Shown here: in pieces, positions 11,002 to 55,295 of the stretch
How the letters are laid out: each line of letters starts with the position of its first letter
Position numbering within the stretch: the stretch's first letter is position 1
Assembly: GCA_016780385.1 (NCBI GenBank)
Contig: JADHLY010000005.1
Location: 1 to 64,000, forward strand
Direction of reading: 5' to 3'
From: Flavobacteriales bacterium
Lineage (GTDB): Bacteria; Bacteroidota; Bacteroidia; Flavobacteriales_D; Sanyastnellaceae
DNA: 64,000 nucleotides
Position numbers and translations under genes: made by a program
The notes under the pieces: model-generated
Database searches by the model: none
Told to the model about the DNA's origin: nothing
Seen by the model: only the letters and a program-made list of their open reading frames with translations

Positions 11002-11177
11002 ACGCCGAAGCAAGAGGGCTGTTGCGCCCTTGATGTGGTTTTGGGGGTGATTGTTGCGTGGACCATGGCCCGAATTGGATGTGTATCACTTGCTTTTAAA
11101 GGGGGAGCGCTGCAAGCACTGACAAAAATCACTGGCTGTCATTGGGTCAGGAACTGGGGGCGTGTTTATCTTACGGC

Positions 11178-12920
11178 ATGCCTAATTCCCAAATCTTGCT
11201 CAAGCACGCGCTGCTGGGTGTTTTCTTTTGTTTTTCAGGCCTTGCGCAGGCCGGCTTCACTGGGTTGACCTATGAAGTGGTGGACAATTCAGATGTAGGG
11301 GTCACCTACCGCATCTACGCCAACTTCGACAACAACACGGATATTATGCAGGCTGTTTACGGCGAAGCACCGTTTGGCTTGTCTGTGACTTCTACCGAAG
11401 GATTCTATCAAGATCCCTTTGGAGGCTTCACTCCGGTTGGGATCAATCCCTTGCTGTACAGCACTTTTGAAAATCTGACCCGAGACTCTTGGCTGACCAT
11501 CGGTCAGGAAGACAACTCTTTTGGGGATCCAATCGCCTCCGTTGGTGGGGCGTCTTGGAACTCAGCGGTGCTGAGTTTTGAAAATGGAGGTGATTTTGTG
11601 GTGAATGACGGCGTAGGGGGCAGTGTGTACGCCTTGCCAAGCCAGCCTCAGGCCATCCCCGATGCCAACGGTCAAGTATTGATTGGGCAGTTGACCACCA
11701 CCGGAAACTGGAACCTGACCTGCAACATTCAGTGGCGTGACGCTGCGCTGGTGGTGTCCAACGAAACTGATTTGAGCATTGGCTATGAGCAAACGGACTT
11801 CGAAGGGCTGTCATATGAACTCGTAGGTGAAAACACTTCCGGAGATGGCTTTGATACCTATCGGGTATATGCCGAGCTCACCGATCCGGGCGCCCAAATC
11901 GTCGCGGTGTACGGTCTTCAGGACACCGCATTGTCCATCACGACGACAGGAACGTTCTACCAGGATGCGTTGGGCGGGGCAACCTCGACCACAATCAATC
12001 CCATCTTGTATGGTACTTTTCCTTCATTGCAGTATGATTCATGGGTGACCATTGGTTCTGAGGACAACGCGGGTTCTGTGGACTACATCGGTGTGGATTT
12101 CATTCCATTTGAAGCCGGTGGTGATATCATCATCGACAATCCCGTGGGAGGCACTTGGTATATCCTGCCAGACTTGGAACCATTGGCGTTTCCCGATGCG
12201 GACGGTAAGGTGTTGCTCGGTCAGTTCACCACGGATGGCATCGTCGACATGGTGTTGAACATCCAGTATCGCTCATCAGGAGGTGCCAATATTCAAGTGC
12301 CTGGAGCGGCGTTGACATTCCCAGTTGTGACGCCGGGTTGTACCGATCCTGGCGCCTGTAACTACAATCCCTTGGCTGACTTCGAGGATGGCTCATGTGA
12401 CTTCCTCACATGCGCGGGGTGTGACGAAACCGATGCCTGCAACTACAACCCCCAGGCGAGCATCGTGGACAATGACTTGTGCGAGTTCCCGGTCGGGTAC
12501 CCCAACAACACAGTGGATTGCGATGGCAACTGCCTCAATGACGCGGACGGCGACCAGGTCTGTGATGAGGATGAGGTGCCAGGTTGTACCAATGACTTGG
12601 CGGACAACTACAATCCGCTCGCCACTGATGATGATGGGTCTTGTTTGATTTCAGGGTGTACAGATTCAGATGCACAGAACTACAATGCGAATGCCACTGA
12701 GGACAATGGTACTTGCGAGTTCTTGATCGTCGGAACCCAGGGATGCACCTATGATGATGCGACCAACTTTGAGGCGGGTGCGACCCTCGACGACGGTTCC
12801 TGTGAATTCGACTGCGAAGGCGGCGGCGGCTGTGCTTACGACACGGATGGCAATGGCTTGATCGGCTCAGCTGACTTGCTCGTCTTCCTGTCGCTTTACG
12901 GGCAGCCTTGCGGAGATTAA
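11178..12920 (+). CDS. Secreted protein: two DSWVTIG domains, five Cys repeats, dockerin-like tail
   Basis: 580 aa. Signal peptide (ALLGVFFCFSGLAQA) from MPNSQILLKH. Two copies of an unrecognised ~165-residue domain follow (DNA about 11253-11757 and 11796-12291), each with TYRIYA or TYRVYA, an FYQD segment, D-S-W-(L/V)-T-I-G, and a QxLIGQLTT or LLGQFTT end. Then come five cysteine units of the GCTDPGACNYNP...DDGSC type. The last ~30 residues are an EF-hand/dockerin-like element, DTDGNGLIGSADLL...CGD, with no T9SS type A or B domain. The DSWVTIG domain recurs in the genes at 13079, 50483 and 54612. Function unknown; extracellular. Confidence 0.8.
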   Translation: MPNSQILLKHALLGVFFCFSGLAQAGFTGLTYEVVDNSDVGVTYRIYANFDNNTDIMQAVYGEAPFGLSVTSTEGFYQDPFGGFTPVGINPLLYSTFENLTRDSWLTIGQEDNSFGDPIASVGGASWNSAVLSFENGGDFVVNDGVGGSVYALPSQPQAIPDANGQVLIGQLTTTGNWNLTCNIQWRDAALVVSNETDLSIGYEQTDFEGLSYELVGENTSGDGFDTYRVYAELTDPGAQIVAVYGLQDTALSITTTGTFYQDALGGATSTTINPILYGTFPSLQYDSWVTIGSEDNAGSVDYIGVDFIPFEAGGDIIIDNPVGGTWYILPDLEPLAFPDADGKVLLGQFTTDGIVDMVLNIQYRSSGGANIQVPGAALTFPVVTPGCTDPGACNYNPLADFEDGSCDFLTCAGCDETDACNYNPQASIVDNDLCEFPVGYPNNTVDCDGNCLNDADGDQVCDEDEVPGCTNDLADNYNPLATDDDGSCLISGCTDSDAQNYNANATEDNGTCEFLIVGTQGCTYDDATNFEAGATLDDGSCEFDCEGGGGCAYDTDGNGLIGSADLLVFLSLYGQPCGD

Positions 12921-13078: not shown

Positions 13079-15352
13079 ATGAGAACCATCCACTCCATCT
13101 TCCTGGCCATTTGTGCTACTGTCGTTAGTGGTGCGGGCTCCTCAATTTTGGCCCAAGCCTGCTCCGATCCTTCGGCATGTAATTACCAGCCCAATGCAGG
13201 GCCGTATTGTGTTGAGACCGAGGTCATGCAAGTCCATACGGACGGTGTCTTGGCTGGCATGACCACCTATCGGGTATACTTCATTGCTGACACCTCGTCA
13301 GACTTGGTGTCTGCTGTATTCGGCGATGCTGATTATCCACTGACGGTGACCACCACCACTTCTTTCTATCAGAATGAATTTGGTGCCGCGACACCCAATG
13401 CCATCAACCCCATTCTGTATGGATTCGCTCCAGAACTTGCCTTTGACAGTTGGGTAACGCTTGGCATTGAGCAAGAGCCATCTGCTACAGCAGGCGAGGG
13501 TTTGGTAGGCCTGGTGTCCGATGAGGCGCAGGATTGGGGGCTTTCATTCGAGGCCGGAGGTGACATTGTCATCAACACTTCAGTAGGAGGTGCTTGGTTC
13601 TCGACCAATGACCAATCGAACGGAGTACCGGATGTCACTGGTCGTGTTCTGCTGGGGCAGTTCACGACGGATGGGGAGCTCGGTGGCATGATCAACCTAT
13701 CTGTCTTTCCCGGTGGCCAGCTTGGTGGTTCTGGTGAACTGGTTACTTATGCCATCGGAGAGGTGTGTCAATGTCTCTATCCCACGACATATTTCGTGGA
13801 CGCTGATGGCGATGGTTATGGCACCACGCCAGTGTTGCTGTGTGAGCCAGGCGAGGGATACGCGACCACAGGTGGTGATTGTAATGACAATACGGCGGTG
13901 GCATATCCTGGGAATCCCTCTGATGTTGTCGGAGATGGTATCGATGGCAATTGTGATGGACAAGAGACCTGTTACCGCGACATAGACAACGATGGCTACC
14001 GCAATGCGGATACGACGGATTTCATCGGCTCACCATTCAATTTAGATTGTGCTGAATTCGGTGAAGCCTATGGATATCAGCCATTTGACTGTGACGATAC
14101 GAACCCAGATCTGACCGTCCCCGATGAGAACGGCAATTGTGATCCTGACGTGACCTCGGCAACAGAGGGTTGTGGTGATCCCGGAGCCTGTAATTATGAC
14201 CCAGAGGCCATTCCGGAGGCGGAGAACTGCGAGTATTTGACTTGTCAGGGGTGTCCGAACCCTGCAGCGTGCAACTACGACCCTGATGCACAGATTCTAG
14301 CCCCCTTGGTTTGTGATTTTACCACTTGCGCGGGATGCACGGATCCGGCAGCCACCAATTACAGCGCAACGGTGGTCATAGCGGATGATTCGGAGTGTGT
14401 GTACGCGGGATTGCTGGCGATTGCGCCGGTCACTGTGCACTTCGAGGACAATGCGGGTCCAGCAATGACGTACACCAATGAGGTGTATGCTTTGTTGCCG
14501 CCTGATGCCATTCGCTTGAAGCGCGTGGTAGGCGTAAAAGGAGGCGATGTCACCTTGCGTGTCGAGCCTTTTGATGCCTTCCACCAATCGGCCACCTGTG
14601 ACGGATGGAACCCCCACGACATGGCCGTCACGACGGCTTTTAATGGGACAGAGTATACCAACTTGGATTGCCTCTCTGACTCTTGGTTTACGATTGGCGG
14701 TTCGGTTGGCAGCGGTCCTGACCTGGCGGCCATCGGGTTTGATGGTGAAGCCCTCTCTGAGATGTCTGCCTTTGACAGTGAATTGCTCGCTGCGGAGGGT
14801 GATAGCCTTGGCTGGGAAATTGAAGGAGATACAGGCGGAGAGCCGTCCAACCACTGTTTGGAACTGCTCGGACGCCCGGGTTGTGCGCATTCCGTGCGCA
14901 TCGCACGCGTCACATTGGCTTTGGGTCAGAGCTTCTCCTTTCAGGCGGGCTTGACCTACACTGTGGGTGGTGAGGGAGAGCGCAGCGTGGCTGGGTTTGA
15001 CATCACCGACGACTCGAGCACCTTTTCCGACAGCGGAGGAGGAGGAGAGGCGGACTCGGACGATGCCATCATTACAGACGGGGTGTCAAACACCATCTAT
15101 GGGTGCTTGAATCCAGTGGCATGCAATTATGATGCTAGTGCCAACGCCGACTCTGGATGGTGCGATTACGACAGCTGCCAGGGCTGTACCTATCAAGATG
15201 CAGACAACTATGACGAGGCGTCCACAGTGGACGATGGCACCTGCACTTTCTCCGTCACGTCGGATTGTCCCTTTGATTCAACGGGAGATGGCTTGATCGG
15301 CGCTTCTGACCTTGTGGATTTCCTCTCGCAATTCGACTCGAGCTGCGAGTAA
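13079..15352 (+). CDS. Secreted protein: DSWVTIG domains, MopE-like metal-binding segment, Cys repeats, dockerin-like tail
   Basis: 757 aa. Signal peptide ending SSILAQA, then a Cys unit (CSDPSACNYQ) and a DSWVTIG domain (DNA about 13205-13740). At about residues 235-345 there are two calcium/copper-type segments of the MopE kind: VDADGDGYGTTP...GGDCNDN...DGNCDGQ and DIDNDGYRNADT...FDCDDTNPDL. Further Cys units (GCGDPGACNYDP and others) flank a second, diverged copy of the domain containing SDSWFTIGG. It ends with a dockerin-like element, STGDGLIGASDLVDFL...CE. Six Cys units in total. Same overall design as the upstream gene, so the two probably arose by duplication. Role unknown. Confidence 0.78.
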   Translation: MRTIHSIFLAICATVVSGAGSSILAQACSDPSACNYQPNAGPYCVETEVMQVHTDGVLAGMTTYRVYFIADTSSDLVSAVFGDADYPLTVTTTTSFYQNEFGAATPNAINPILYGFAPELAFDSWVTLGIEQEPSATAGEGLVGLVSDEAQDWGLSFEAGGDIVINTSVGGAWFSTNDQSNGVPDVTGRVLLGQFTTDGELGGMINLSVFPGGQLGGSGELVTYAIGEVCQCLYPTTYFVDADGDGYGTTPVLLCEPGEGYATTGGDCNDNTAVAYPGNPSDVVGDGIDGNCDGQETCYRDIDNDGYRNADTTDFIGSPFNLDCAEFGEAYGYQPFDCDDTNPDLTVPDENGNCDPDVTSATEGCGDPGACNYDPEAIPEAENCEYLTCQGCPNPAACNYDPDAQILAPLVCDFTTCAGCTDPAATNYSATVVIADDSECVYAGLLAIAPVTVHFEDNAGPAMTYTNEVYALLPPDAIRLKRVVGVKGGDVTLRVEPFDAFHQSATCDGWNPHDMAVTTAFNGTEYTNLDCLSDSWFTIGGSVGSGPDLAAIGFDGEALSEMSAFDSELLAAEGDSLGWEIEGDTGGEPSNHCLELLGRPGCAHSVRIARVTLALGQSFSFQAGLTYTVGGEGERSVAGFDITDDSSTFSDSGGGGEADSDDAIITDGVSNTIYGCLNPVACNYDASANADSGWCDYDSCQGCTYQDADNYDEASTVDDGTCTFSVTSDCPFDSTGDGLIGASDLVDFLSQFDSSCE

Positions 15353-16779: not shown

Positions 16780-16910
16780 TTGTGGAAACTATTTTGTATT
16801 CGTCGTGTTTCCTCGTTTGAGCCGATAAACATCGACGCTCTTGAGGTTTGGGGCTTTGATTGGTGCCCTTCCTTCTTGATAATGGCAGTGTCATTCCCCT
16901 GATTTGTGGG

Positions 16911-16931
16911 AAGGTGTATGATGTACACCTT
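16911..16931. promoter_or_regulatory. Inverted repeat upstream of the 16984 gene
   Basis: AAGGTGTA (16911-16918) and TACACCTT (16924-16931), a perfect 8-bp dyad around 5 nt, 53 bp before the start. It could be an operator or a 5'-leader hairpin. The rest of 16780-16983 shows nothing I recognise. Confidence 0.35.
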
Positions 16932-16983
16932 CTCTCGCTATATTGGCCGCGATTGTAGAAACCAAACTGTAACCACAAACACA

Positions 16984-19900
16984 ATGCGCAATATTTTGCT
17001 GCTCTTCATTGCTTTGTTCGGCTTCGGCTATGCACAAGCTCAAGATTGCACCGGAGCTGACCATACTGTCCTGGCCGGTAATTACTATTACAGCCCTTCT
17101 GCGCTGACGGTGACCGCTGGCGAGACCATTGCCTTCTTAAACGAAGGCGGCTTCCACAACGTGAATGGCGTTTCGAGTACACTTGGAGCCACATGGGGCA
17201 ATCCCGAGACGTTCTCGTTGGGTTCCAACAGCGGTTCTGCTGGAGGCGTGTGCATGGGCACAGTGACCTTGAACACTCCGGGAACATATCAGTATGACTG
17301 CAGCATTGGTTCACATGCTGCCAATGGCATGGTGGGTACGATTGTGGTGGAAGCGGCTGGCAGTGCCACACCTACAGACAATGCCGCTGATCCCACCTTG
17401 GATGCTGGAGATGTGGTCTCCATCTATGGAGGTGCGTACGATAACATTGCCAACAACTACAATCCATTCTGGGCTCAGTCCGGTACTGTGGATGAGGCTT
17501 ACGATCCCGGAACCGGGAATACTGTGTTGCAGTATGCCAACTTTAACTACCAGGGAACAGAGGTCTCATTGTCGGATTTGTCCGGTATGACCCACCTCCA
17601 CGTGGATGTCTGGGTGGCCGCCGGCAACGACCGGATGCTGAAGGTGACTCCTGTCAACAGTGGAACGGGTGCTGGCGAGTTCCTCGTAGAAGTTCCCCTC
17701 ACACCTGGTGCATGGAACAGCGTAGACCTGACCAAAGCCGCGTTTGAAGGCATGACTTGGGACGGCGTGTTCCAAATGAAGTTTGACGGTCAGTTCAATG
17801 CTGACGGCTCCGCCAATGGTGCGGGATGGGATGTTTATCTCGACAACATCTACTTCTGGAATGACGGCACGGGATCCGGGCCCCCATCAGGGGAAACGGT
17901 AGATGTGACGTTTACAGTGAACATGGAAAACGAGACCGTCTCATCTGATGGTGTGTCTTTGGCGGGAGGTGCCTATTTCGGATTTCCCGGAGACAACCCC
18001 ATGTCCGATAACGGCGACGGCACATGGTCTACGACCATTGCCGTTCCAGTGGGCTTCACCGGAAACTACACGTTTACGAATGGCGGTGCGGCCTGTGGCT
18101 GGAACTGCAAGGAGAACATTGCAGGGCTAGATTGCGCAGACGGTCCATTTGCCGACCGCTTGTTGAGCAACATCACCGAAGACACTACAATCAACACTTG
18201 TTTCGGAGAGTGTACTACGGACGGCTCTTGTTCAGCCCCTTCGACGCAATACAATGTGACCTTCCAAGTCGACATGTCCAATTCCGATTTGGATGGTACC
18301 GAAACGATTTATGTGACCGGTTCATTTGAAGGGTGGTGCGGTCCTTGTGACAACGTCATGACCGACAGTGGCAATGGCGTGTACACCCATACAGTGAGCC
18401 TCGATCCGGGGAGTTATGAGCACAAGTTCATGATCAATGCCTGGGGCGGTGACGAGCAGGCCATTTTGGGAACAGCTTGTGATTTCGTTCCTGGAGATGG
18501 TTTCGGCAACCGCGGTTTCGAAATCGTGGATGCAGACATCGTGCTGCCTGTGCAGTGCTTCGACTTCTGCGGCACTTGTGAAGAGCAGAACACCCAAGGG
18601 ACGGTGGACATTACATGGAATGTCAACATGTCCAATGAGGAGGTTTCTCCCGATGGCGTGCACCTTGCTGGTGGCGGCACATTCGGAAACCCCGGTGACA
18701 ATCCGTTGACCGACAATGGAGATGGCACTTGGTCTATTACAATGACACTGCCTGAAGGTGTTTCTAGCTACTACATCTTCACCAACGGTGGAGCTGCGTG
18801 CAGTTGGGGTTGTAAGGAGGACCTTACCGGTCTTCCTTGTGGTGATCCTGGAAACTTCAATGACCGTTATTTAGACAACATCACGCAAGACACTACATTC
18901 AATTTCTGCTTTGGAGAATGCGGCACAGACGGTGTCTGTGTAGGCGATGACGGCGGTGGCCCTACGGATCCTGCGGACAGCTTGGCAGTGACGTTTAACG
19001 TCGACATGAACAACTACGGCGGTACGTTTGGTTTCGTCAACGTTGCAGGCAGCTGGAATGACTTCTGCGCAGACTGCAACCAGATGACCGACGATGATTT
19101 GGATGGCATCTGGACAGCGACCATCAGCCTGCCTCTAGGAGAGAACTATCGCTACAAGTACCAGGTCGATTCTTGGGCCGATCAAGAAGATCTGGCCCCT
19201 GGTGACAACCCGGTGGGACCTTGTGTCGTCAAGGAAGGCGGTTTCACCAACCGCGATCTTGATGTTGCCGGAACAGAGGCCATTGATTTGGGCGTTGTAT
19301 GCTGGGGTTCATGTTGGGCCTGCATCGGCCAAGACGACGTGCCTGGATGTAATGACAGTGCAGCAGCGAACTACGATGAGGCTGCTACGGCCAATGATGG
19401 CACTTGTATCTACGACGTGACCTTCTCGGTCAACATGAGTGAGTATCCACTCAATGAATTGGACTCTGTGTATGTAAACGGCGAGTTCAATGGTTGGTGC
19501 GGTGCTTGCAACGCGATGTTGGATGAGGATGGTAACGGCATTTATGAGACGACCATTCCGTTGACGAGTGATTACTATGAGTACAAGTTCACGGTGAATG
19601 CTTGGAGCGCTGAGGAGAACCTCGCAGGTGCAGGTGGTTGTGTGACCGAGAACTTCGGGTTTACGAACCGTGTGCTTCAGTTGGCTACGAACCAAAGCCA
19701 GCCTGTCGTTTGCTGGAACAGCTGTTCCGACTGCGAAGGCGGTGGAGAGGTGTTCGGCTGTACCGATCAGGCAGCAACCAATTACAGTGACTTGGCTACT
19801 GACGACGACGGATCATGTACGTACATGGTCACCTTCCAGGTGGACATGAACGAATACGCCGGCAGCTTCAGTGCGGTCAATCTGAACGGAACATTCACCG

Positions 19901-20796
19901 GATGGTGTGGAGCTTGCGTTCCGATGACAGATGACGATGTCGATGGTGTTTATCAGGCGACTGTAGAGTTGACCGTGGGCACTGTGGAATACAAGTTCAC
20001 GGTTGATGGATGGGCGGACCAGGAGTACTTCTCTGAAGGTGCCGTTTGCACCTCTACCATTGATGGCTTCACCAACCGTTCCGTCGATGTCACCGGAGCG
20101 GCTACGCTTGACGTTGTGTGTTGGGCTTCCTGCTATGCATGCGATGTTGCTACGGGCTGTACCGACTCAGATGCTCAGAATTACGATGCAGACGCAGTGG
20201 CCGATGATGGATCTTGTTCTTACATCGTGACCATTCGTTTGGATATGACCACTTCTACATTGGGTGCAGGTGGTGTGCACATTGCAGGTTCTTTCCAAGG
20301 CTGGGATCCGGGCGCTACCGCCATGACCTCTCCAGGCTTGAACCTTTATGAGTACACCTTGCAGTTGTCCAATGGCGCTTACCAGTACATCTTCATCAAC
20401 GGCAACACTTGGGACGGTCAAGAGACGGTTCCAGCCGATTGCGGAGCAGACAATGGTCTGGGCGGCTACAACCGCGAGGTTGTTGTTGCTGGTTCAGATA
20501 TGACGCTGGATGTTGTGTGCTTCAACAGCTGTGAGGCATGCGCTGGTTGTACTGACCCATTGAGTGCAGAGTTCAGCCCATGGGCCGGATCAGATGATGG
20601 TTCTTGCGCTACGCCACTGGTGTTTGGCTGTACCTACCCAGACGCTGACAACTACAATGCTGCTGCGACTTCAGAGGATGGCACTTGCGTGTTCTCTGGC
20701 GCAAGCGACTGTCCAACGGACATCGACGGCGACGGCTCTACGGCTGTTGGTGACCTCTTGGTCATCCTCGGTGCCTTCGGACAGGCCTGCGAGTAA
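16984..20796 (+). CDS. Large secreted protein: cupredoxin, CBM-like domain, seven CBM-like repeats, Cys repeats, dockerin-like tail
   Basis: 1270 aa. Signal peptide MRNILLLFIALFGFGYAQAQ. Residues ~21-123 are a cupredoxin with all type 1 copper ligands: His58, Cys106, His111, Met116 (CSIGSHAANGM). A ~160-aa beta-sandwich follows (Trp/Asp-rich, ending WDVYLDNIYFW, as in carbohydrate-binding modules). Then seven ~105-aa repeats each start V-T-F-x-V-(D/N)-M and contain G-x-F-x-G-W and Y-x-Y-K-F, the form of CBM20/CBM48 or glycogen-binding folds; each has conserved Cys pairs. Five GCTDxxAxNY Cys units are interspersed. The C-terminus is DIDGDGSTAVGDLLVIL...CE. No T9SS domain. Predicted extracellular, glycan-binding and possibly redox-active. 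Confidence 0.82.
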   Translation: MRNILLLFIALFGFGYAQAQDCTGADHTVLAGNYYYSPSALTVTAGETIAFLNEGGFHNVNGVSSTLGATWGNPETFSLGSNSGSAGGVCMGTVTLNTPGTYQYDCSIGSHAANGMVGTIVVEAAGSATPTDNAADPTLDAGDVVSIYGGAYDNIANNYNPFWAQSGTVDEAYDPGTGNTVLQYANFNYQGTEVSLSDLSGMTHLHVDVWVAAGNDRMLKVTPVNSGTGAGEFLVEVPLTPGAWNSVDLTKAAFEGMTWDGVFQMKFDGQFNADGSANGAGWDVYLDNIYFWNDGTGSGPPSGETVDVTFTVNMENETVSSDGVSLAGGAYFGFPGDNPMSDNGDGTWSTTIAVPVGFTGNYTFTNGGAACGWNCKENIAGLDCADGPFADRLLSNITEDTTINTCFGECTTDGSCSAPSTQYNVTFQVDMSNSDLDGTETIYVTGSFEGWCGPCDNVMTDSGNGVYTHTVSLDPGSYEHKFMINAWGGDEQAILGTACDFVPGDGFGNRGFEIVDADIVLPVQCFDFCGTCEEQNTQGTVDITWNVNMSNEEVSPDGVHLAGGGTFGNPGDNPLTDNGDGTWSITMTLPEGVSSYYIFTNGGAACSWGCKEDLTGLPCGDPGNFNDRYLDNITQDTTFNFCFGECGTDGVCVGDDGGGPTDPADSLAVTFNVDMNNYGGTFGFVNVAGSWNDFCADCNQMTDDDLDGIWTATISLPLGENYRYKYQVDSWADQEDLAPGDNPVGPCVVKEGGFTNRDLDVAGTEAIDLGVVCWGSCWACIGQDDVPGCNDSAAANYDEAATANDGTCIYDVTFSVNMSEYPLNELDSVYVNGEFNGWCGACNAMLDEDGNGIYETTIPLTSDYYEYKFTVNAWSAEENLAGAGGCVTENFGFTNRVLQLATNQSQPVVCWNSCSDCEGGGEVFGCTDQAATNYSDLATDDDGSCTYMVTFQVDMNEYAGSFSAVNLNGTFTGWCGACVPMTDDDVDGVYQATVELTVGTVEYKFTVDGWADQEYFSEGAVCTSTIDGFTNRSVDVTGAATLDVVCWASCYACDVATGCTDSDAQNYDADAVADDGSCSYIVTIRLDMTTSTLGAGGVHIAGSFQGWDPGATAMTSPGLNLYEYTLQLSNGAYQYIFINGNTWDGQETVPADCGADNGLGGYNREVVVAGSDMTLDVVCFNSCEACAGCTDPLSAEFSPWAGSDDGSCATPLVFGCTYPDADNYNAAATSEDGTCVFSGASDCPTDIDGDGSTAVGDLLVILGAFGQACE

Positions 20797-45554: not shown

Positions 45555-48500
45555 TTATTGACAGGGGTCTCCAAACAGACCGAGCATCATAAGCAAGTCG
45601 TTGACGCTCACGATGCCATCGGCGTCGACATCGGCCGGTCCACAATCCGCGATGCAGCCAAAAACGCTCAATGCGATGAGCAAGTCGCCGACATCGTGGA
45701 CGCCGTTATCGTTGGCATCCCCCAGACAGAAGCCGCTCGGAGAAACACAGCCCGATGCGGTTGCGGCCACATTGTGGCGGTCCTCGTTGGTGACTTCAGC
45801 CGAGGCTGTGAGACAAATGTCTTCACCAGCTTCAGTGAAGTGCAGGCGCACCAGAGGCTGCGGCAGTGTGCTTTTGTGGATGAGGCTGTCCTCAAGCGCC
45901 ACGCCGAAGGCCATGCCACCCGCAGAAAGGTGGAAGTAATGCTGGTAGCCGGTGGTGTCGAAGAGGGGGGTGACGTCGGTAAACGTCGCGCCCTCCAATT
46001 GAACCGACCATCCGCTCAGCCATGTCTGCGGGTTTTGGACATACAGGTCGACAAAGCCAGAGTCCTCGTGCATCATCATGAGGCTGAAATCGACCTGCTG
46101 GTCGGGAACCACCAAGGTGCCGTTCCAATCGCAATGGTCCTCAATACCGTTGTCTCCGAAGTGGTTGTGGCCATAGTGGGCGCAATCGGCGGCCAAGGCC
46201 ACGTCGGTCACGCTCAGGGTGCCGTCGCTGTTGAGGTCAACGCAAGGCGCCGCGGTTTCCACACCATCGATGACCAAGTCCGCATAGAGCAGGGGGTCAT
46301 CCGCATCGACTTCGCCATCTTGATCGAGGTCTCCTTTGGTCAGATACCCGGGGCAGTTGCCCGCACAATCCGGCTCTTCGTCGCCATATGGATGCCCGAG
46401 GCAATCCACAGGGACGTCACAATCATCGTATTTCTCAAAGTTGATGGCTTGCCCGTCTCCGTTGCGCTCGAAGGAGAAACACACGGCCACGGCGTTGTTG
46501 GCGTAGTTCAATTCGAAACTGCCATTGGCATCGGGACTGTAGTCCCAGTTGACGCGGATGACCAAGGTGTAGTCGCCCCCCGGAAGGTCGGTGATGTCCA
46601 CCCATTGGCAGTCGAGGTAACGGGAGTAGATGTCCTGGCAACCTGCTGTGATGCCCATGTTGGAGCAGGTGTATTTCTGTGGGCCTCCACCATAGTTGCA
46701 GCCGCCGAGGTCCAGCACGCAGAAGCCGTTTTTGAATCCGATGGTCGGCAGCGGAGAGCCGCTGTCGTCGAAAAGGGCATACTCGGCATAGCCTTCGTAG
46801 TGATAGTGGTTGTGACAGGCGTCCCACTCGAACTGATCGGGCTGGGCTGAGGGCGCACCGATGAAATAGTCTTCGGTGCCGATGTTGGCGATTTCGGTGT
46901 CGAAGCGCACAATTTCCCGGGTGCCATACCCTTGAATGCACCCCTCGGCGATCATGCACGCATCACTGTTGCTCTCGGTGGTCATCTCCAGCGTGCTGTA
47001 TGCCCGCAATCCATTGATGATGAGGTCCGGTCCGATGTTGGGGCATTCAGGATCTCCGGCGAGATAGCAGGTGTCCGGGGCTGTGGCAATGGGGAGGTAG
47101 TTGCAGGCTTCAATGTTCATGCAGCCGAGCACCCCACCGAGGTATTCCACTTCGAATGGGATGCCCCCTGCTCCGCTGTTGCAATCACCGTCACCTTCGA
47201 TGCGGATGTAAATAGTCTCGCCCGCGATGAGCACGGGGGTCACCTCGCTTTGCAAGCCGCAGTCGTCGTCCGACATGGTGATGAAGGCCTCTGAAGAGGT
47301 CTCAAACACCGCCATGTCGCAGTAGTCGTAAAGGTGGATGCGGGTGTCGCACGTGGTCAATCCGCAGGTAGAGAACCGATACTGCCCCGTCGTGTCGACC
47401 GGGAGGTAATACCATGTGTCGGAGAGGGGGGCGACCAGCGATTGCACCCCGCCTTCCGCCGAAATCTCAAGCCCAATCGGGTCGTCACATCCACTGCCCT
47501 CCGGACAGCCGATGAGCGTGAGTTGGGCCGCGTCGAAGTGTTCTCCGTCGCGGAGGATGTTGCCGTCGTATCGGATTTGATAGGTGCCTCCTATCGAAAA
47601 GCCGTCGGCACCGGCATCGAAGAGCCATACAGATAGGCACCCGGTGGGCACACAGACATCGAGGCCTTCTGCTCCGCCGGAGTAGAGCGTGTCCCCGTCT
47701 TCATTGGTGACTGCAAATGAGGTTTCTTGAGGAAAGCTGTCGGGCGTAATGTCAATCTCAAGCCGGTGCAGGTTCTCGCCGACATCTAGGGTGGCCATGT
47801 TGATGGATGTCGAGCTGCCGTCATCTCCCACGGTAAGGGTGATCTCGTAGGTGCCGGCATCTTCCCAAGTGACCACCGGGCTGGCCGCCGCGCTCGTGGC
47901 CGGAGTACCGCCTTCAAAAGTCCAAGCGTAGGTGACCACGTTTCCGATGCTGAGGTCCGTGAATTGGGCCGTCAGTGGCAGGCCGCAATTGGAAGCCCAA
48001 TTAAACCCGGCAGAAAGCTCCGGGTAGTTGCAGCTTCCATCATCGGCCATGGCACAGGCGTCGTAGTTCAGCGCGGCCGGGTCGGTGCACCCGGGGTTGT
48101 CGCCTTCTGCACAAGGTCCAATGAGGTCAAGGGTCATCCCGTAATCACTCAAGCCGCCTGAATTCCAGGCATTCATAACCTCCACGAGCCAGCATCCTGA
48201 TCCGGATAGGCCATAACCGTCGAGGTCGGTGATGGAGGCGGAGTAGGTGCCGTCGGCTGAAGTATTCCAAGAAGGGGGCCAACCACCGGCCTCCACATAG
48301 CCGAAATCGACATTGTAACCACCGACTTCGATGCGGTTGCCATTGGGTGCCGTGATGGCGAGCGCCATATCGCCGGGCCAATTGCTCCCCGGTGCTTCGA
48401 ACTCAAGGGTGATGTCGAAGCCCTCGAGTGCGCAACCGGCCGTGAAGTCAATGCTCGCCGTCTGCGATCCCGAAAGGCTTCCCGCCCACACGATTTGCGT

Positions 48501-48596
48501 GGTGTCCTGGGCCGCCAAGCGACCGCTGACCATGGTGGCCAAAGTCGAGGCGAACAGAAGGAGGCATAGGCGGCAGCAAGAACCGAGTGTCTTCAT
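45555..48596 (-). CDS. Secreted lysyl-oxidase-like enzyme 2 with P-domain, PKD, PPC, dockerin and cohesin-like modules
   Basis: 1013 aa. Signal peptide; P-domain-like sandwich (~45-160, GSNWPGDMALAITAPNG); Cys unit; PKD domain (~192-272, VVTYAWTFEGGTP); Cys-rich beta domain; PPC domain (~370-485); second Cys unit; lysyl oxidase domain (~520-712) with CHNHYHY (His595, 597, 599), Lys622 (GFKNGFCVLDL) and Tyr657 (CQDIYSRYLDCQWVDIT), so the copper site and LTQ residues are kept. Then a dockerin (GDLDQDGEVDADDP, VDLNSDGTLSVTDVAL), a cohesin-like sandwich (~834-950) and a terminal double dockerin-like tail (DANDNGVHDVGDLL, DVDADGIVSVNDLL ... CQ). No T9SS domain, unlike its paralogue at 36670. Confidence 0.87.
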   Translation of the reverse strand: MKTLGSCCRLCLLLFASTLATMVSGRLAAQDTTQIVWAGSLSGSQTASIDFTAGCALEGFDITLEFEAPGSNWPGDMALAITAPNGNRIEVGGYNVDFGYVEAGGWPPSWNTSADGTYSASITDLDGYGLSGSGCWLVEVMNAWNSGGLSDYGMTLDLIGPCAEGDNPGCTDPAALNYDACAMADDGSCNYPELSAGFNWASNCGLPLTAQFTDLSIGNVVTYAWTFEGGTPATSAAASPVVTWEDAGTYEITLTVGDDGSSTSINMATLDVGENLHRLEIDITPDSFPQETSFAVTNEDGDTLYSGGAEGLDVCVPTGCLSVWLFDAGADGFSIGGTYQIRYDGNILRDGEHFDAAQLTLIGCPEGSGCDDPIGLEISAEGGVQSLVAPLSDTWYYLPVDTTGQYRFSTCGLTTCDTRIHLYDYCDMAVFETSSEAFITMSDDDCGLQSEVTPVLIAGETIYIRIEGDGDCNSGAGGIPFEVEYLGGVLGCMNIEACNYLPIATAPDTCYLAGDPECPNIGPDLIINGLRAYSTLEMTTESNSDACMIAEGCIQGYGTREIVRFDTEIANIGTEDYFIGAPSAQPDQFEWDACHNHYHYEGYAEYALFDDSGSPLPTIGFKNGFCVLDLGGCNYGGGPQKYTCSNMGITAGCQDIYSRYLDCQWVDITDLPGGDYTLVIRVNWDYSPDANGSFELNYANNAVAVCFSFERNGDGQAINFEKYDDCDVPVDCLGHPYGDEEPDCAGNCPGYLTKGDLDQDGEVDADDPLLYADLVIDGVETAAPCVDLNSDGTLSVTDVALAADCAHYGHNHFGDNGIEDHCDWNGTLVVPDQQVDFSLMMMHEDSGFVDLYVQNPQTWLSGWSVQLEGATFTDVTPLFDTTGYQHYFHLSAGGMAFGVALEDSLIHKSTLPQPLVRLHFTEAGEDICLTASAEVTNEDRHNVAATASGCVSPSGFCLGDANDNGVHDVGDLLIALSVFGCIADCGPADVDADGIVSVNDLLMMLGLFGDPCQ

Positions 48597-50482: not shown

Positions 50483-53400
50483 ATGGGAGCACTACGCAGC
50501 ATTCTCTTATTGACACTGATCGTCACATTCTGTTGGGATGGACAGGCGCAAAACAACATCAACTTCGACTTGGAAGTGGACGTTGTCCTCGATACCGTGT
50601 TGTACGACGGTTATGTCGATGTTCCTGAAGGGTTCCGACGCTACAACCTTTACGCCATCCTGCCCTCTCCCGACCACTTCATGTTGGGGCCTGCGGCGGA
50701 CAATGCCAGTGACCCCATCATTCCAGGGTTCATGTACAACGCGCCATGCGGTTGCTACAATTACCAAGACCCTTTGTTTGCGCCCAACGGCTACAACAAT
50801 GGCGCCAACGTCAGCGCGGCGATTTTGGGCATCGAGCCTCAGCTCGCCTATGACACCTGGTGGACGACCCACGTGTCGCAAGGCACTCCAGGCACCACAG
50901 TCTTTGAGACTTCAGGCATGTTCCCCGTCGGGTTCAACAGCTGCTCCGACATGGTGGGGCAGGGGGGAATCGTTGTGACCAATGCAGACCCCATTCATGC
51001 TACGGTCCAAAACGGACGTGCCCTCATCGGCCAGATCACCACGTGTGAGACCTTTTCCTTTCAAGTGTGTGTCGCGATGCAGCTTGGTACGGATGTGACC
51101 AGCTACTGCACGGACGGTTTGGTGGAAGTAGAGGATTTTTGCTTGCCCATGGCCGATCCTCAGTTCTCTGTGGTAGAGTCCATCGACTGCTTCGGGGAAA
51201 CCGCTTCCGTCGAAGTGGTTCCAAACGATCCCACCGCATCGTTCAATTCCACAGTGGAGTATAGCCTGTTCCAATTTGACGGAACAGACACCACGCTGGT
51301 TCAGCAACAAATTGGAAACCCCAGTTTTACGGGCATTGGCGATGGCAATTACTTCGTGGCCTTGGTGGATACAGCGCGAACCATCGCGTTCTCCTCGAAC
51401 ACGTGCCGGGATACCACAGGTGTTTTTGCCTTTACCTCTCCAGATGAAATCCAGCTCGAGGCGACCTTGGCCCAGGACAACCTCTGCGGGGATGTCGTAG
51501 AAGCCACAATTTGTGCCACCGCCAGTGGTGGAACCGGTGCCATTACCGAGGAGGCCTCTCACAACTTGGGCTTTTCGGTTAGTCCTGACGCCGCCGGTTG
51601 TTTCGGACCACTGGAGTGCTTTGGTGGCGATGGCGCATACACCATCACCGCGACGGACGAACAGGGCTGCAGCAAAGACACGACCATCACAGTGTCTTGC
51701 CCTGAACCGCTGGCTTTCGACGCAGACGCTTCGGAAGTGAGTTGCACGGGCTATTCAGATGCCACATTGAGTGCCTCGGCTTCCGGCGGAACCGGGACGG
51801 TTGTCTTTGAGGTGCCGGAAATTAATGTGACCATCGAATTTGACGGCAGCATTGATTTCGACCAAGACAGCCTGCCCAGCGGCACCTACACGTTTACGAT
51901 CACCGATGACAACGGGTGCACCTATAGCGAGCCTTTGATCATTGAAGAGCCCGAAGGCTTGGAAGTCTCTTATGCCGTCACCGATGTGGCGTGTGCGGGA
52001 GATTGCAATGGCCTGATCCTTGCCGACATCCAAGGCGGTGAATTGCCCTACACCATTACGGTGACCGACCTCGACGGAGGTGATGCCAATCCTGGGCAGC
52101 TCTGTCCAGGGACATACGTGCACATCACAGAGGACGGCAACCAGTGCCTGATGACCGACACCTTGAGCATCGTAGGCCCGGACACCATCCAGTTCAGCTT
52201 CAGCGTATCCAATGTGCCGTGCAGCGGAGCGAGCAGCGGTCAGATTTGTTTGGACAGCTTGGAGGGGGGGACAGGAACGCTGACCCCACAGCTCGTGCCG
52301 TTGCCCACAGGCAGCCAGGACGGCAACTGTTTCAACGTTCCGGCTGGTGGTTATGACGTGCTCGTACAAGACAGCTTGGGCTGCACGAGTGATTTCTTCT
52401 CGGTACAAGTAGAGGAACCCGCCTCCATCCAAATCATCCCCGGCATCACGCCCATCTCCTGCACAGGGTTGGGCGATGGCATGCTCATTGTGAATGCATT
52501 GGGGGGCAGCGGAGCGCTGGAACTCTTGTCGCCCTTCATCATTTCTTCACTGCCCGACACCCTGTTCAACTTGGGCGCGGACTCACTGATGTTGGTGGTA
52601 GGGGATACCCTCGGCTGCATCGACAGCTTGCAAGTGGAGATTCCCGAGCCCGACCCGGTAACGTTGGACATCTTGAGTACCGTATTGCCTGAGTGCGGCG
52701 GAGACTGCACGGGTGGCATCGAGGTGGCGATTAATGGAGGTACTGGTGTCTTGGATTTGTATCAAGACGCGGTGTCCGATTCCACGGGTGTCATTCCCAG
52801 CGGATTGGTCAACCTCTGTGCGGGAATCTATCCGCTCTTCCTCAGCGATGAAAATGGATGTTTGGACTCCACCGTGGTGGAGATTTCAGAGCCCGACCCG
52901 CTGTTGTTTGACATCACCATTCAAAACGTGACGTGCACGGGCATGGATGACGGTGTGGCCATCATCGGCACGACCGGAGGATCCGGTGCCAGCGCTTGGG
53001 AATTTGTGGGAGGTCCGGTGGATGTGCTCAACCTCTTTGAAGGTGAGTACTTCGTCTCCGCAGTGGATACTGCGGGTTGTACCGCCGACTCCAGCTTCTT
53101 TGTCGAGGCGGACATCATCACCGACATGGTGGTCGAGATGTTCACGACCCCTGTGACGTGCTGGCAGACCTCTGACGGCACAGCCACTGCCGCTGTGACT
53201 GGAGGGCAGCAGCCCATCCAATTCGCATGGAGCGATCCCGATTCGCAAACCACGGCCACCGCCATTGGACTCGCAGAAGACGTGTACAGCGTGACCGTGA
53301 CCGACGACATCGGTTGCACCCTCGGGTTCCTTGCCACGGTTGACCCTACTGAAGAATGTCTGTTCATTGCAGATGCCCTCACCCCCAATGGCGATGGCAT

Positions 53401-53620
53401 CAATGACCGATGGGTTGTGGGCGGACTCGAATTCTACCCGCAGAGTGAAGTGGAAGTCTTCAACCGTTGGGGACAATTGTTGTTCCGCTCGAAACCAGGC
53501 ACCACATGGTGGGATGGCACTTACAATGGAGCCTTGCTTCCCGCCAGTGATTACTACTACGTGATTACGGTGGAGCCCGGCGTAGCTCCCATCACGGGAA
53601 CAGTTACCCTCAAGTACTGA
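50483..53620 (+). CDS. T9SS type B cargo: DSWVTIG-like N-domain and nine SprB-like repeats
   Basis: 1045 aa. Signal peptide ending WDGQAQ. The N-terminal ~190 residues are a diverged copy of the DSWVTIG domain (RRYNLYA, AYDTWWTTH, ALIGQITT) with extra cysteines. About nine ~75-90-residue SprB-like repeats follow, recognisable by paired phrases such as VSCTGYSDATLSASASGGTG and TYTFTITDDNGC, VPCSGASSG, VTCTGMDDG. The C-terminal ~85 residues are the T9SS type B (gliding-motility-associated) domain: ADALTPNGDGINDRW, VEVFNRWGQLLF, WWDGTYNG. Next to PorP/SprF, its expected partner. A large surface adhesin, by analogy with SprB. Confidence 0.9.
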   Translation: MGALRSILLLTLIVTFCWDGQAQNNINFDLEVDVVLDTVLYDGYVDVPEGFRRYNLYAILPSPDHFMLGPAADNASDPIIPGFMYNAPCGCYNYQDPLFAPNGYNNGANVSAAILGIEPQLAYDTWWTTHVSQGTPGTTVFETSGMFPVGFNSCSDMVGQGGIVVTNADPIHATVQNGRALIGQITTCETFSFQVCVAMQLGTDVTSYCTDGLVEVEDFCLPMADPQFSVVESIDCFGETASVEVVPNDPTASFNSTVEYSLFQFDGTDTTLVQQQIGNPSFTGIGDGNYFVALVDTARTIAFSSNTCRDTTGVFAFTSPDEIQLEATLAQDNLCGDVVEATICATASGGTGAITEEASHNLGFSVSPDAAGCFGPLECFGGDGAYTITATDEQGCSKDTTITVSCPEPLAFDADASEVSCTGYSDATLSASASGGTGTVVFEVPEINVTIEFDGSIDFDQDSLPSGTYTFTITDDNGCTYSEPLIIEEPEGLEVSYAVTDVACAGDCNGLILADIQGGELPYTITVTDLDGGDANPGQLCPGTYVHITEDGNQCLMTDTLSIVGPDTIQFSFSVSNVPCSGASSGQICLDSLEGGTGTLTPQLVPLPTGSQDGNCFNVPAGGYDVLVQDSLGCTSDFFSVQVEEPASIQIIPGITPISCTGLGDGMLIVNALGGSGALELLSPFIISSLPDTLFNLGADSLMLVVGDTLGCIDSLQVEIPEPDPVTLDILSTVLPECGGDCTGGIEVAINGGTGVLDLYQDAVSDSTGVIPSGLVNLCAGIYPLFLSDENGCLDSTVVEISEPDPLLFDITIQNVTCTGMDDGVAIIGTTGGSGASAWEFVGGPVDVLNLFEGEYFVSAVDTAGCTADSSFFVEADIITDMVVEMFTTPVTCWQTSDGTATAAVTGGQQPIQFAWSDPDSQTTATAIGLAEDVYSVTVTDDIGCTLGFLATVDPTEECLFIADALTPNGDGINDRWVVGGLEFYPQSEVEVFNRWGQLLFRSKPGTTWWDGTYNGALLPASDYYYVITVEPGVAPITGTVTLKY

Positions 53621-54609
53621 TGACCATGAACACAGCACACAATTTCCGGAAACGTTCGCTCGGATGGAGCATGGTCGCGCTTGGTGTCATGGTGGCATTG
53701 ACCGCTGAGGCCCAGCAATTGTCTCGGCAGAGTCAGTTTATCCAAAACCCCTTCCTCGTGAACCCAGCCTTTGCTGGTACGGAGTTGGGCACCTTTGCCT
53801 CACTCAGCCACCGCGAGCAGTGGGTGGGGTTCCATGGCGCGCCCTCGACGAGCAGTGTCACCGTGACCTCGAGTTTGCCCAACCGATTTGGTGTCGGGTT
53901 CACCGTAGAACGCGATGACCAAGGTGGGGCCTTCAGGCGCACGGGCATGGAGCTTTCAGGCACTTACACGGTAGACCTGAACAACCAAGACGCCGTAGCC
54001 TTTGGCATTGGACTGATTGGTCGCAATACCCGCTTTGATGGGACAGACCTGCAGCTCTGGCAACCCGACGACCCCGCCATCACCGGGGCTGTGGAGAGCA
54101 AGTTTGCGTTTGACTCCCGGTTTGGTTTGATGGTGTTTGGTCAGCATTACCAGTTCGGATTGGCCGTGTCCAATCTGTTGCAGACGCCACTGGGGCTCGA
54201 GTCGGAGCCTACGGATTCCCGCAACCGAGGCGTGCGCCACTATGCCCTCACCGGGCGCTACGATTACACCTTGGACGCCAGCTGGGTGATTCAGCCTGCT
54301 GTGATGATGCGGTTCACGGAAATCACGCCGGTACAATTGGATATCCATGCCCGCGCCTTGTACCAGAACCGGTACTGGGGTGGAATGGGCTTCAGACAAG
54401 GAGATGCGTTGGTCCTGATGGTCGGAGCGACCTTCCAAGACATTCAGGTGGGATACTCCTACGATGCAGGGACTGGCGCCGTTGGGAATCTTTCACCCAA
54501 CACGCATGAAATCACGCTATCTTACGTATTGCCCAGGCAAGGCGCGGGATTCTCCCGCAGAGGTTTGGGTGGTCGACTGCTCGACCGGAATTTGATCATC
54601 CGCAATTGA
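53620..54609 (+). CDS. PorP/SprF family T9SS membrane protein
   Basis: 329 aa outer-membrane barrel-type protein: after the signal peptide come SQFIQNPFLVNPAFAGTE and the HREQWVGFHGAPST block that defines the PorP/SprF family. The type B cargo immediately upstream overlaps it by 1 nt (TGATG), the usual pairing in which an SprF-like protein handles one type B substrate. The next gene starts about 3 nt after its stop. Confidence 0.93.
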   Translation: MTMNTAHNFRKRSLGWSMVALGVMVALTAEAQQLSRQSQFIQNPFLVNPAFAGTELGTFASLSHREQWVGFHGAPSTSSVTVTSSLPNRFGVGFTVERDDQGGAFRRTGMELSGTYTVDLNNQDAVAFGIGLIGRNTRFDGTDLQLWQPDDPAITGAVESKFAFDSRFGLMVFGQHYQFGLAVSNLLQTPLGLESEPTDSRNRGVRHYALTGRYDYTLDASWVIQPAVMMRFTEITPVQLDIHARALYQNRYWGGMGFRQGDALVLMVGATFQDIQVGYSYDAGTGAVGNLSPNTHEITLSYVLPRQGAGFSRRGLGGRLLDRNLIIRN

Positions 54610-54611
54610 CA

Positions 54612-55232
54612 ATGAACATGCTCAAGAATTTGGCCCTGTGCTGCGGTGCTTTGGCCATCGCGCTTTCGTCCACTGCCCAGTTCAAGGGAATCGTGGTAGA
54701 AGAAGTGGACAATAAAGGCATCGTGCCGGGCAAGACGTACCGCATTTATGCCCAAATGGAAGCGGAGGGCGACGTGGTCGACGCCATCTTCGGCGATGGG
54801 GAGGACTACCTCGAGGTCAAGAGCACCGCACCATTCTATCAGCACGAACGGGGCGGCAACGCCGCCAATGAGCTGCAGCGTTCTGATGTACAAACCCTCG
54901 AAGGCTTGGCCTACGACAGCTGGGTGACCATCGGGTACGAGGACAACTACATGAATGCACTGACGGCCTTCCTGATGGACTTTTCGGAGTTCGAAACAGG
55001 AGGTCGGCTCTACACCAACAATGGCGCCTGGTTTGTGACGCCAGACATGCGCCAGGCCGCCGCAGGTCCTGATGGAAAGCTGCTGTTGATGCAGTTGACC
55101 ACTGAAGGCGACATCTCAGGCCGCATCAATCTCCACGGCCGCACGCGTCCTGTGCCCATGAAGACCCAGCCAGACAGCCTCGCGCCCCGATTGATTGACG
55201 AGCGTAACATCGCCATTGACATCAAAGGCTGA
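54612..55232 (+). CDS. Single-domain secreted DSWVTIG protein
   Basis: 206 aa from ATG 54612 (a TTG at 54606 overlaps the previous stop). Signal peptide LALCCGALAIALSSTAQ, then one complete DSWVTIG domain: KTYRIYAQME, VDAIFGDGEDYL, FYQHERGG, AYDSWVTIGYEDNY, FETGGRLYTNNGAWFVTPD and KLLLMQLTTEGD. No Cys repeats and no sorting tail. It is the minimal version of the domain found once or twice in the genes at 11178, 13079 and 50483, and is co-transcribed with the type B cargo and PorP/SprF, so it probably works at the cell surface with them. Function unknown. Confidence 0.8.
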   Translation: MNMLKNLALCCGALAIALSSTAQFKGIVVEEVDNKGIVPGKTYRIYAQMEAEGDVVDAIFGDGEDYLEVKSTAPFYQHERGGNAANELQRSDVQTLEGLAYDSWVTIGYEDNYMNALTAFLMDFSEFETGGRLYTNNGAWFVTPDMRQAAAGPDGKLLLMQLTTEGDISGRINLHGRTRPVPMKTQPDSLAPRLIDERNIAIDIKG

Positions 55233-55263: not shown

Positions 55264-55295
55264 ACAAAAAAGGCACCTTCGGGTGCCTTTTTTGT
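55264..55295. terminator. Bidirectional terminator, end of SprF operon and msrB
   Basis: Stem of at least 12 bp (AAAAAAGGCACC/GGTGCCTTTTTT) with TTCG tetraloop and A and T tracts on both sides, between convergent genes. Confidence 0.9.

Follow-up and report, generated by a model that had tools for sequence, protein, structure and literature searches.

Organization of the locus

In the present study, we analyzed a stretch of 64,000 nucleotides from a Flavobacteriales bacterium (hereafter the window), in which three genes on the + strand, between positions 50483 and 55232, encode a type B cargo of the T9SS, a PorP/SprF-family shuttle, and a third protein with a DSWVTIG domain. The features of the locus are as follows.

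50483..53620, + strand: type B T9SS cargo, 1045 aa, with a signal peptide, N-domain, SprB repeats, and type B sorting domain
50549..51187, + strand: N-domain of the cargo, a diverged homologue of the DSWVTIG domain as judged by hhalign and AlphaFold2
53372..53614, + strand: type B C-terminal sorting domain (TIGR04131, E 5e-23; CHU_C, E 4e-23)
53620..54609, + strand: PorP/SprF shuttle, 329 aa (PF11751, E 2.5e-61; TIGR03519, E 1.8e-63)
54532..54606, + strand: C-terminal tail of SprF, the last 25 residues, basic and cysteine-free in the window
54612..55232, + strand: third gene, 206 aa (or 204 aa if translated from the likelier start at 54618), encoding a signal peptide and a single DSWVTIG domain
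54678..55229, + strand: mature DSWVTIG domain of the third protein (AlphaFold2 pLDDT 91, pTM 0.87)
55272..55293, no strand assigned: hairpin resembling a terminator (GGCACC-TTCG-GGTGCC, then six T) in the gap that separates the third gene from the convergent MsrB gene

The stop codon of the cargo gene (TGA, 53618-53620) overlaps the start codon of SprF (ATG, 53620) by 1 base, and the first ATG of the third gene, at 54612, lies two bases past the end of the SprF stop codon. The true start of the third gene is probably the ATG at 54618 (MLKN...), as indicated by those orthologues that have no ATG at the position corresponding to 54612. The cluster is bordered by a divergent RluA-like gene on one side and the convergent MsrB gene on the other. 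The hairpin at 55272-55293 was read directly from the sequence and was absent from the output of the scan that was run, and a promoter scan returned nothing above chance. The tight layout described in the first-pass annotation is borne out by the coordinates and by the 1-base overlap between the cargo and SprF genes, and we infer that the three genes are transcribed as one operon.

The cargo shows two hallmarks of a type B substrate, namely a C-terminal sorting domain (81 bits against a cut-off of 35 for TIGR04131, and 82 bits against 27 for CHU_C) and a PorP/SprF gene directly downstream, an arrangement that recurred at 60/60 loci with room on the contig. At one related locus (L146:2541-10579), a single SprF gene and a single third gene come after a tandem pair of type B cargos, each of which has the N-domain. 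The shuttle in the window passed the family cut-offs with 208 bits for PF11751 and 215 bits for TIGR03519. Its C-terminal end, GGRLLDRNLIIRN, belongs to a tail that is common only to SprF orthologues with a third gene, the net charge of which ranges between +3 and +11; other SprFs were alignable only as far as residue 278-293 of 305. The Cys-X-Cys motif that marks the gliding subgroup of SprF was absent from the window SprF and from the orthologue tails listed. No third gene was found near the other six SprF genes of the same genome. Two other SprF-like genes of this genome directly adjoin GldJ-family genes (G000:C53 7007-9690 and G000:C20 46292-48632), and the product of the former has a cysteine-containing tail end (PCPGF), unlike the window SprF.

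Conservation of the three-gene cluster among relatives

A scan of species genomes yielded 80 loci, 67 of which contained an orthologue of the third gene. SprF was located directly upstream on the same strand in 64 of these 67 loci, the remaining three being at a contig start, and the type B cargo was present wherever the contig left room for it (60/60). The trio was intact in 17 relatives, with gene spacings of about 1-110 nt throughout. In a reciprocal search of 40 relatives with SprF as the query, the orthologue was detected in 19 genomes, which were exactly the 19 with the third gene. Six family genomes, several of them incomplete, lacked both genes, and no genome had only one of the two. 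The same three-gene cluster was, therefore, found in relatives, as the first-pass annotation had proposed to look for, and the pattern that it had named as contrary, SprF operons consistently lacking the third gene and third genes at random loci, was searched for and did not appear. The trio is a real conserved cluster beyond local chance.

RluA, MsrB, UvrA, and a sigma factor also flank the trio in most loci, and, thus, part of its conservation is attributable to regional synteny. Five loci (L153 and L156-L159) retain the trio with none of the neighbors of the window found, although some of these contigs are short downstream. Among the database records that hold the Flavobacteriales trio are some titled Euryarchaeota archaeon (L140) and Chryseobacterium gleum (L153 and L156), and these MAG names are probably wrong.

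The third protein and its domain

The first-pass annotation stated that the third gene encodes nothing but one DSWVTIG domain, and this was confirmed apart from the signal peptide: AlphaFold2 modelled the mature protein as a single beta-sandwich (pLDDT 91), the last strand of which forms the C terminus. No match to the third protein was obtained in Pfam or NCBIfam, searches with TIGR04131, TIGR04183, and CHU_C revealed no T9SS sorting domain, and its signal peptide (SSTAQF) contains no lipobox. The gene is under strong purifying selection, with dN/dS of 0.04-0.09 within the genus, where dS was computable.

The cargo N-domain was also confidently modelled as a beta-sandwich (pLDDT 88), and the profiles of the third protein and the N-domain were aligned by hhalign with a probability of 99.5. 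Clearer versions of the motif occur in the cargo N-domains of other genera (YDTWWTIG, YDSFMTIG, and LDSFWTIG). These profile and motif comparisons uphold the earlier view that the cargo begins with a diverged copy of the same domain and identify the N-domain as a real, strongly diverged homologue of the domain in the third protein.

The 1.86-Mb genome contained 27 matches to the DSWVTIG domain, many of which were in very large open frames, and the domain was found in many unrelated architectures. The domain family has no name so far, and genomes of the genus to which the window belongs each contain about 20 to 40 copies of it. A second conserved family of single-domain proteins, about 325-350 aa long (L088-L095, e.g., L088:5973-6959, and L046-L049), carries, besides the DSWVTIG domain, the module GCTD..NYN..DGSC and a type A-like tail at the C terminus, and spans the same bacterial family, including genomes in which no orthologue of the third gene was found (e.g., G008).

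Candidate partners of the third protein

We compared evolutionary distances for 15 pairs across about 30 to 40 loci, with the distances of the sigma factor and UvrA as covariates. With this two-covariate correction, the third protein correlated with the cargo N-domain at 0.21-0.25 (permutation p 0.0025-0.0125), a weak correlation that involves an N-domain close to saturation; SprF, the cargo core, the CTD, and MsrB showed none with the third protein. As a positive control, the known pair of SprF and the CTD reached 0.29-0.41 with the same two covariates. Correlations corrected for UvrA only were discarded because the unrelated sigma factor correlated equally well.

Since the third protein showed a weak signal of co-divergence with the cargo N-domain and none with SprF, we favor a pairing with the N-domain, and tentatively suggest that the operon gives rise to one surface complex, with the third protein as a dedicated accessory subunit, a reading to which we assign slightly less than an even chance. 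The cargo would be an adhesin-like type B protein exported by the T9SS translocon, of which SprA is encoded in the genome, and the dedicated SprF would hold it at the outer membrane, by analogy with the type B pairs of cargo and SprF already known. Sec would export the third protein, which would fold as a homologue of the cargo N-domain and pair with it. Considering that it carries neither a sorting domain nor a lipobox, such a pairing would most likely start in the periplasm, where the third protein is placed by default; it may act as a periplasmic escort, holding the N-domain until export, and may then accompany the cargo outward and stay on it at the cell surface. We infer the pairing, the place, and the role of the third protein. 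Regarding the earlier proposal that the small protein pairs with the N-domain of the cargo, the weak co-divergence fits, and the physical association itself is a prediction; an end-cap role or a surface location is hypothetical for a protein that is without a T9SS sorting domain and periplasmic by default. In sequence, the third protein has nearer relatives in another single-domain family, at 40-42 % identity, than in the cargo N-domain. We counted this against the pairing, together with the finding that the larger part of the synteny extends to unrelated neighbors.

The main rival concerns the tail of SprF. The C-tail of SprF is periplasmic in F. johnsoniae, in which the gliding SprF is bound to GldK through a Cys-X-Cys C-tail (PMC12635249). 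Since the window SprF has no Cys-X-Cys and its basic tail is specific to the orthologous group, a contact between this tail and the third protein is possible. The third protein may then be a periplasmic partner of SprF in a PorE-like slot and role, which binds the C-tail and fixes or regulates the SprF-cargo complex. Its gene takes the position that a PorE-like gene has behind the SprF-like gene Fjoh_3951 (PMC12618676), and a complex of PorE, PorP, and PG1035 is known (PMC9143113). The basic tail is exclusive to the SprF group linked to the third gene, and most third proteins are acidic (net charge -12 and pI 4.5 in the window); however, some are near neutral, and with a cargo N-domain of still greater acidity, charge does not discriminate between the two candidate partners. 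The third protein also has no recognizable peptidoglycan-binding domain in addition to its missing lipobox, and its corrected correlation with SprF was between -0.15 and -0.21, i.e., no correlation. Taken together, we regard a role as a SprF partner as rather unlikely.

It is also conceivable that the third protein has an envelope function of its own, such as ligand binding, and shares only a promoter with its neighbors, the trio then being maintained mainly by regional synteny. The conserved genes around the trio and the many unrelated architectures in which the domain occurs in the genome are consistent with such independence, whereas the five loci that keep the trio where no neighbor was found, the joint absence of SprF and the third gene in 6 family genomes, and the close spacing throughout argue against it, and we consider this explanation unlikely.

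Comparison with known T9SS arrangements

A type B cargo with a dedicated SprF is a known arrangement, and some type B operons contain an additional PorE-like protein, through which the complex may be attached to the cell wall (PMC12618676; PMC9143113). The idea of the trio as the smallest unit of a surface-assembly system not yet described was not supported. The pairs SprB-SprF and Fjoh_3952-Fjoh_3951 of F. johnsoniae (PMC12618676; PMC12635249) likewise consist of a type B cargo with SprB repeats and, immediately downstream, its PorP/SprF-family gene; the window differs from these pairs by the addition of the DSWVTIG third gene and by a SprF without the GldK-binding Cys-X-Cys tail. A third component with a shuttle and a cargo is also present in PorE-PorP-PG1035 and in the type B operons with PorE (PMC9143113; PMC12618676). 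The lipoprotein PorE contains TPR, propeller, and OmpA-like domains (PMC9143113), whereas the third protein of the window is a single small beta-sandwich without a lipobox and akin to the N-domain of the cargo itself. Without a lipobox or a Pfam match, and with one domain, the third protein does not qualify as a PorE-like anchor.

In a limited literature search, we found no title or abstract describing such a third gene. The third gene is a new element, an undescribed component added to the known arrangement of type B cargo and SprF. Its constant co-encoding in one uncultured Flavobacteriales family suggests that the small protein is an undescribed part of a known surface-display machinery. 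This bears on how type B T9SS proteins are held and assembled at the cell surface, and a conserved small partner, one shuttle, and a homologous cargo N-domain represent a compact and directly testable three-protein system.

Rhodes et al., as cited in PMC12635249, reportedly described a sprC-sprD-sprB-sprF operon in 2011. This operon likewise combines accessory genes with an adhesin and SprF; judged from the gene order in the title and not from the sequence, its extra genes precede the adhesin, while that of the window follows SprF.

Relation to cohesins and dockerin-like repeats

No PDB chain was related to the domain by sequence, Foldseek returned no match under E 0.001 for either model, and VIA-align Z values were 6.5 or below for both, with a weak likeness to cohesins, Als/MSCRAMM adhesins, and pilins; therefore, no fold family was assigned. 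The general beta-sandwich arrangement resembles that of cohesins and of MSCRAMM/Als-type adhesins (Z 4-6.5), whereas the window domain has no sequence relation to solved structures or to Pfam cohesin, and this likeness is too weak for a family claim.

A cohesin-like module would nevertheless make the operon a display for a receptor of secreted proteins that end in GC-type dockerin repeats. Cohesin modules were among the weak PDB matches of both models (Z about 4-5.5), although they were tied with adhesin and pilin domains, such that these Z values are uninformative. The genome yielded 26 matches to the GC-type dockerin NF041540, three of which were over the cut-off, and no match to the Pfam cohesin PF00963 anywhere at E <= 10. 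Among the 40 relatives, the same 25 genomes had the domain and dockerins, and the domain co-occurs with C-terminal dockerin-like repeats in Phycisphaerales; however, this co-occurrence is inflated by those domain proteins that have a dockerin-like tail of their own. The strong association in the 40 genomes, in which the two sets were identical, broke down in a 299-genome sample of the order: several genomes (G050, G132, G195, G234, G241, and G267) had the third gene without a dockerin match at E <= 0.01, and the domain mostly occurred without dockerins in family f9. Due to this imperfect match across the order, the operon is no simple receptor for dockerins, and we judge a receptor of this type very improbable. 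A broader version, to which we attach the least credence of all the readings, is that the third protein and the cargo N-domain constitute an undescribed cohesin-like family and a T9SS-anchored scaffold, capable of self-pairing and of binding GC-type dockerin tails; if true, Bacteroidota would possess a surface assembly resembling a cellulosome, in common with some Phycisphaerales.

In Phycisphaerales MAGs, three tandem single-domain DSWVTIG proteins with PEP-CTERM-like tails are encoded at L163:3479-6206, and DSWVTIG proteins ending in two dockerin-like repeats at L166:2061-4304 and L169:9878-12220; no SprF was found in these three loci. In the window itself, the secreted proteins encoded at 11142-12920, 13079-15352, and 16906-20796 on the + strand and at 45555-48596 on the - strand end in dockerin-like repeats (DxDGDG...DLLxxLxxFGxxC). 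Such tails are frequent in the genome and could be an anchoring or sorting signal.
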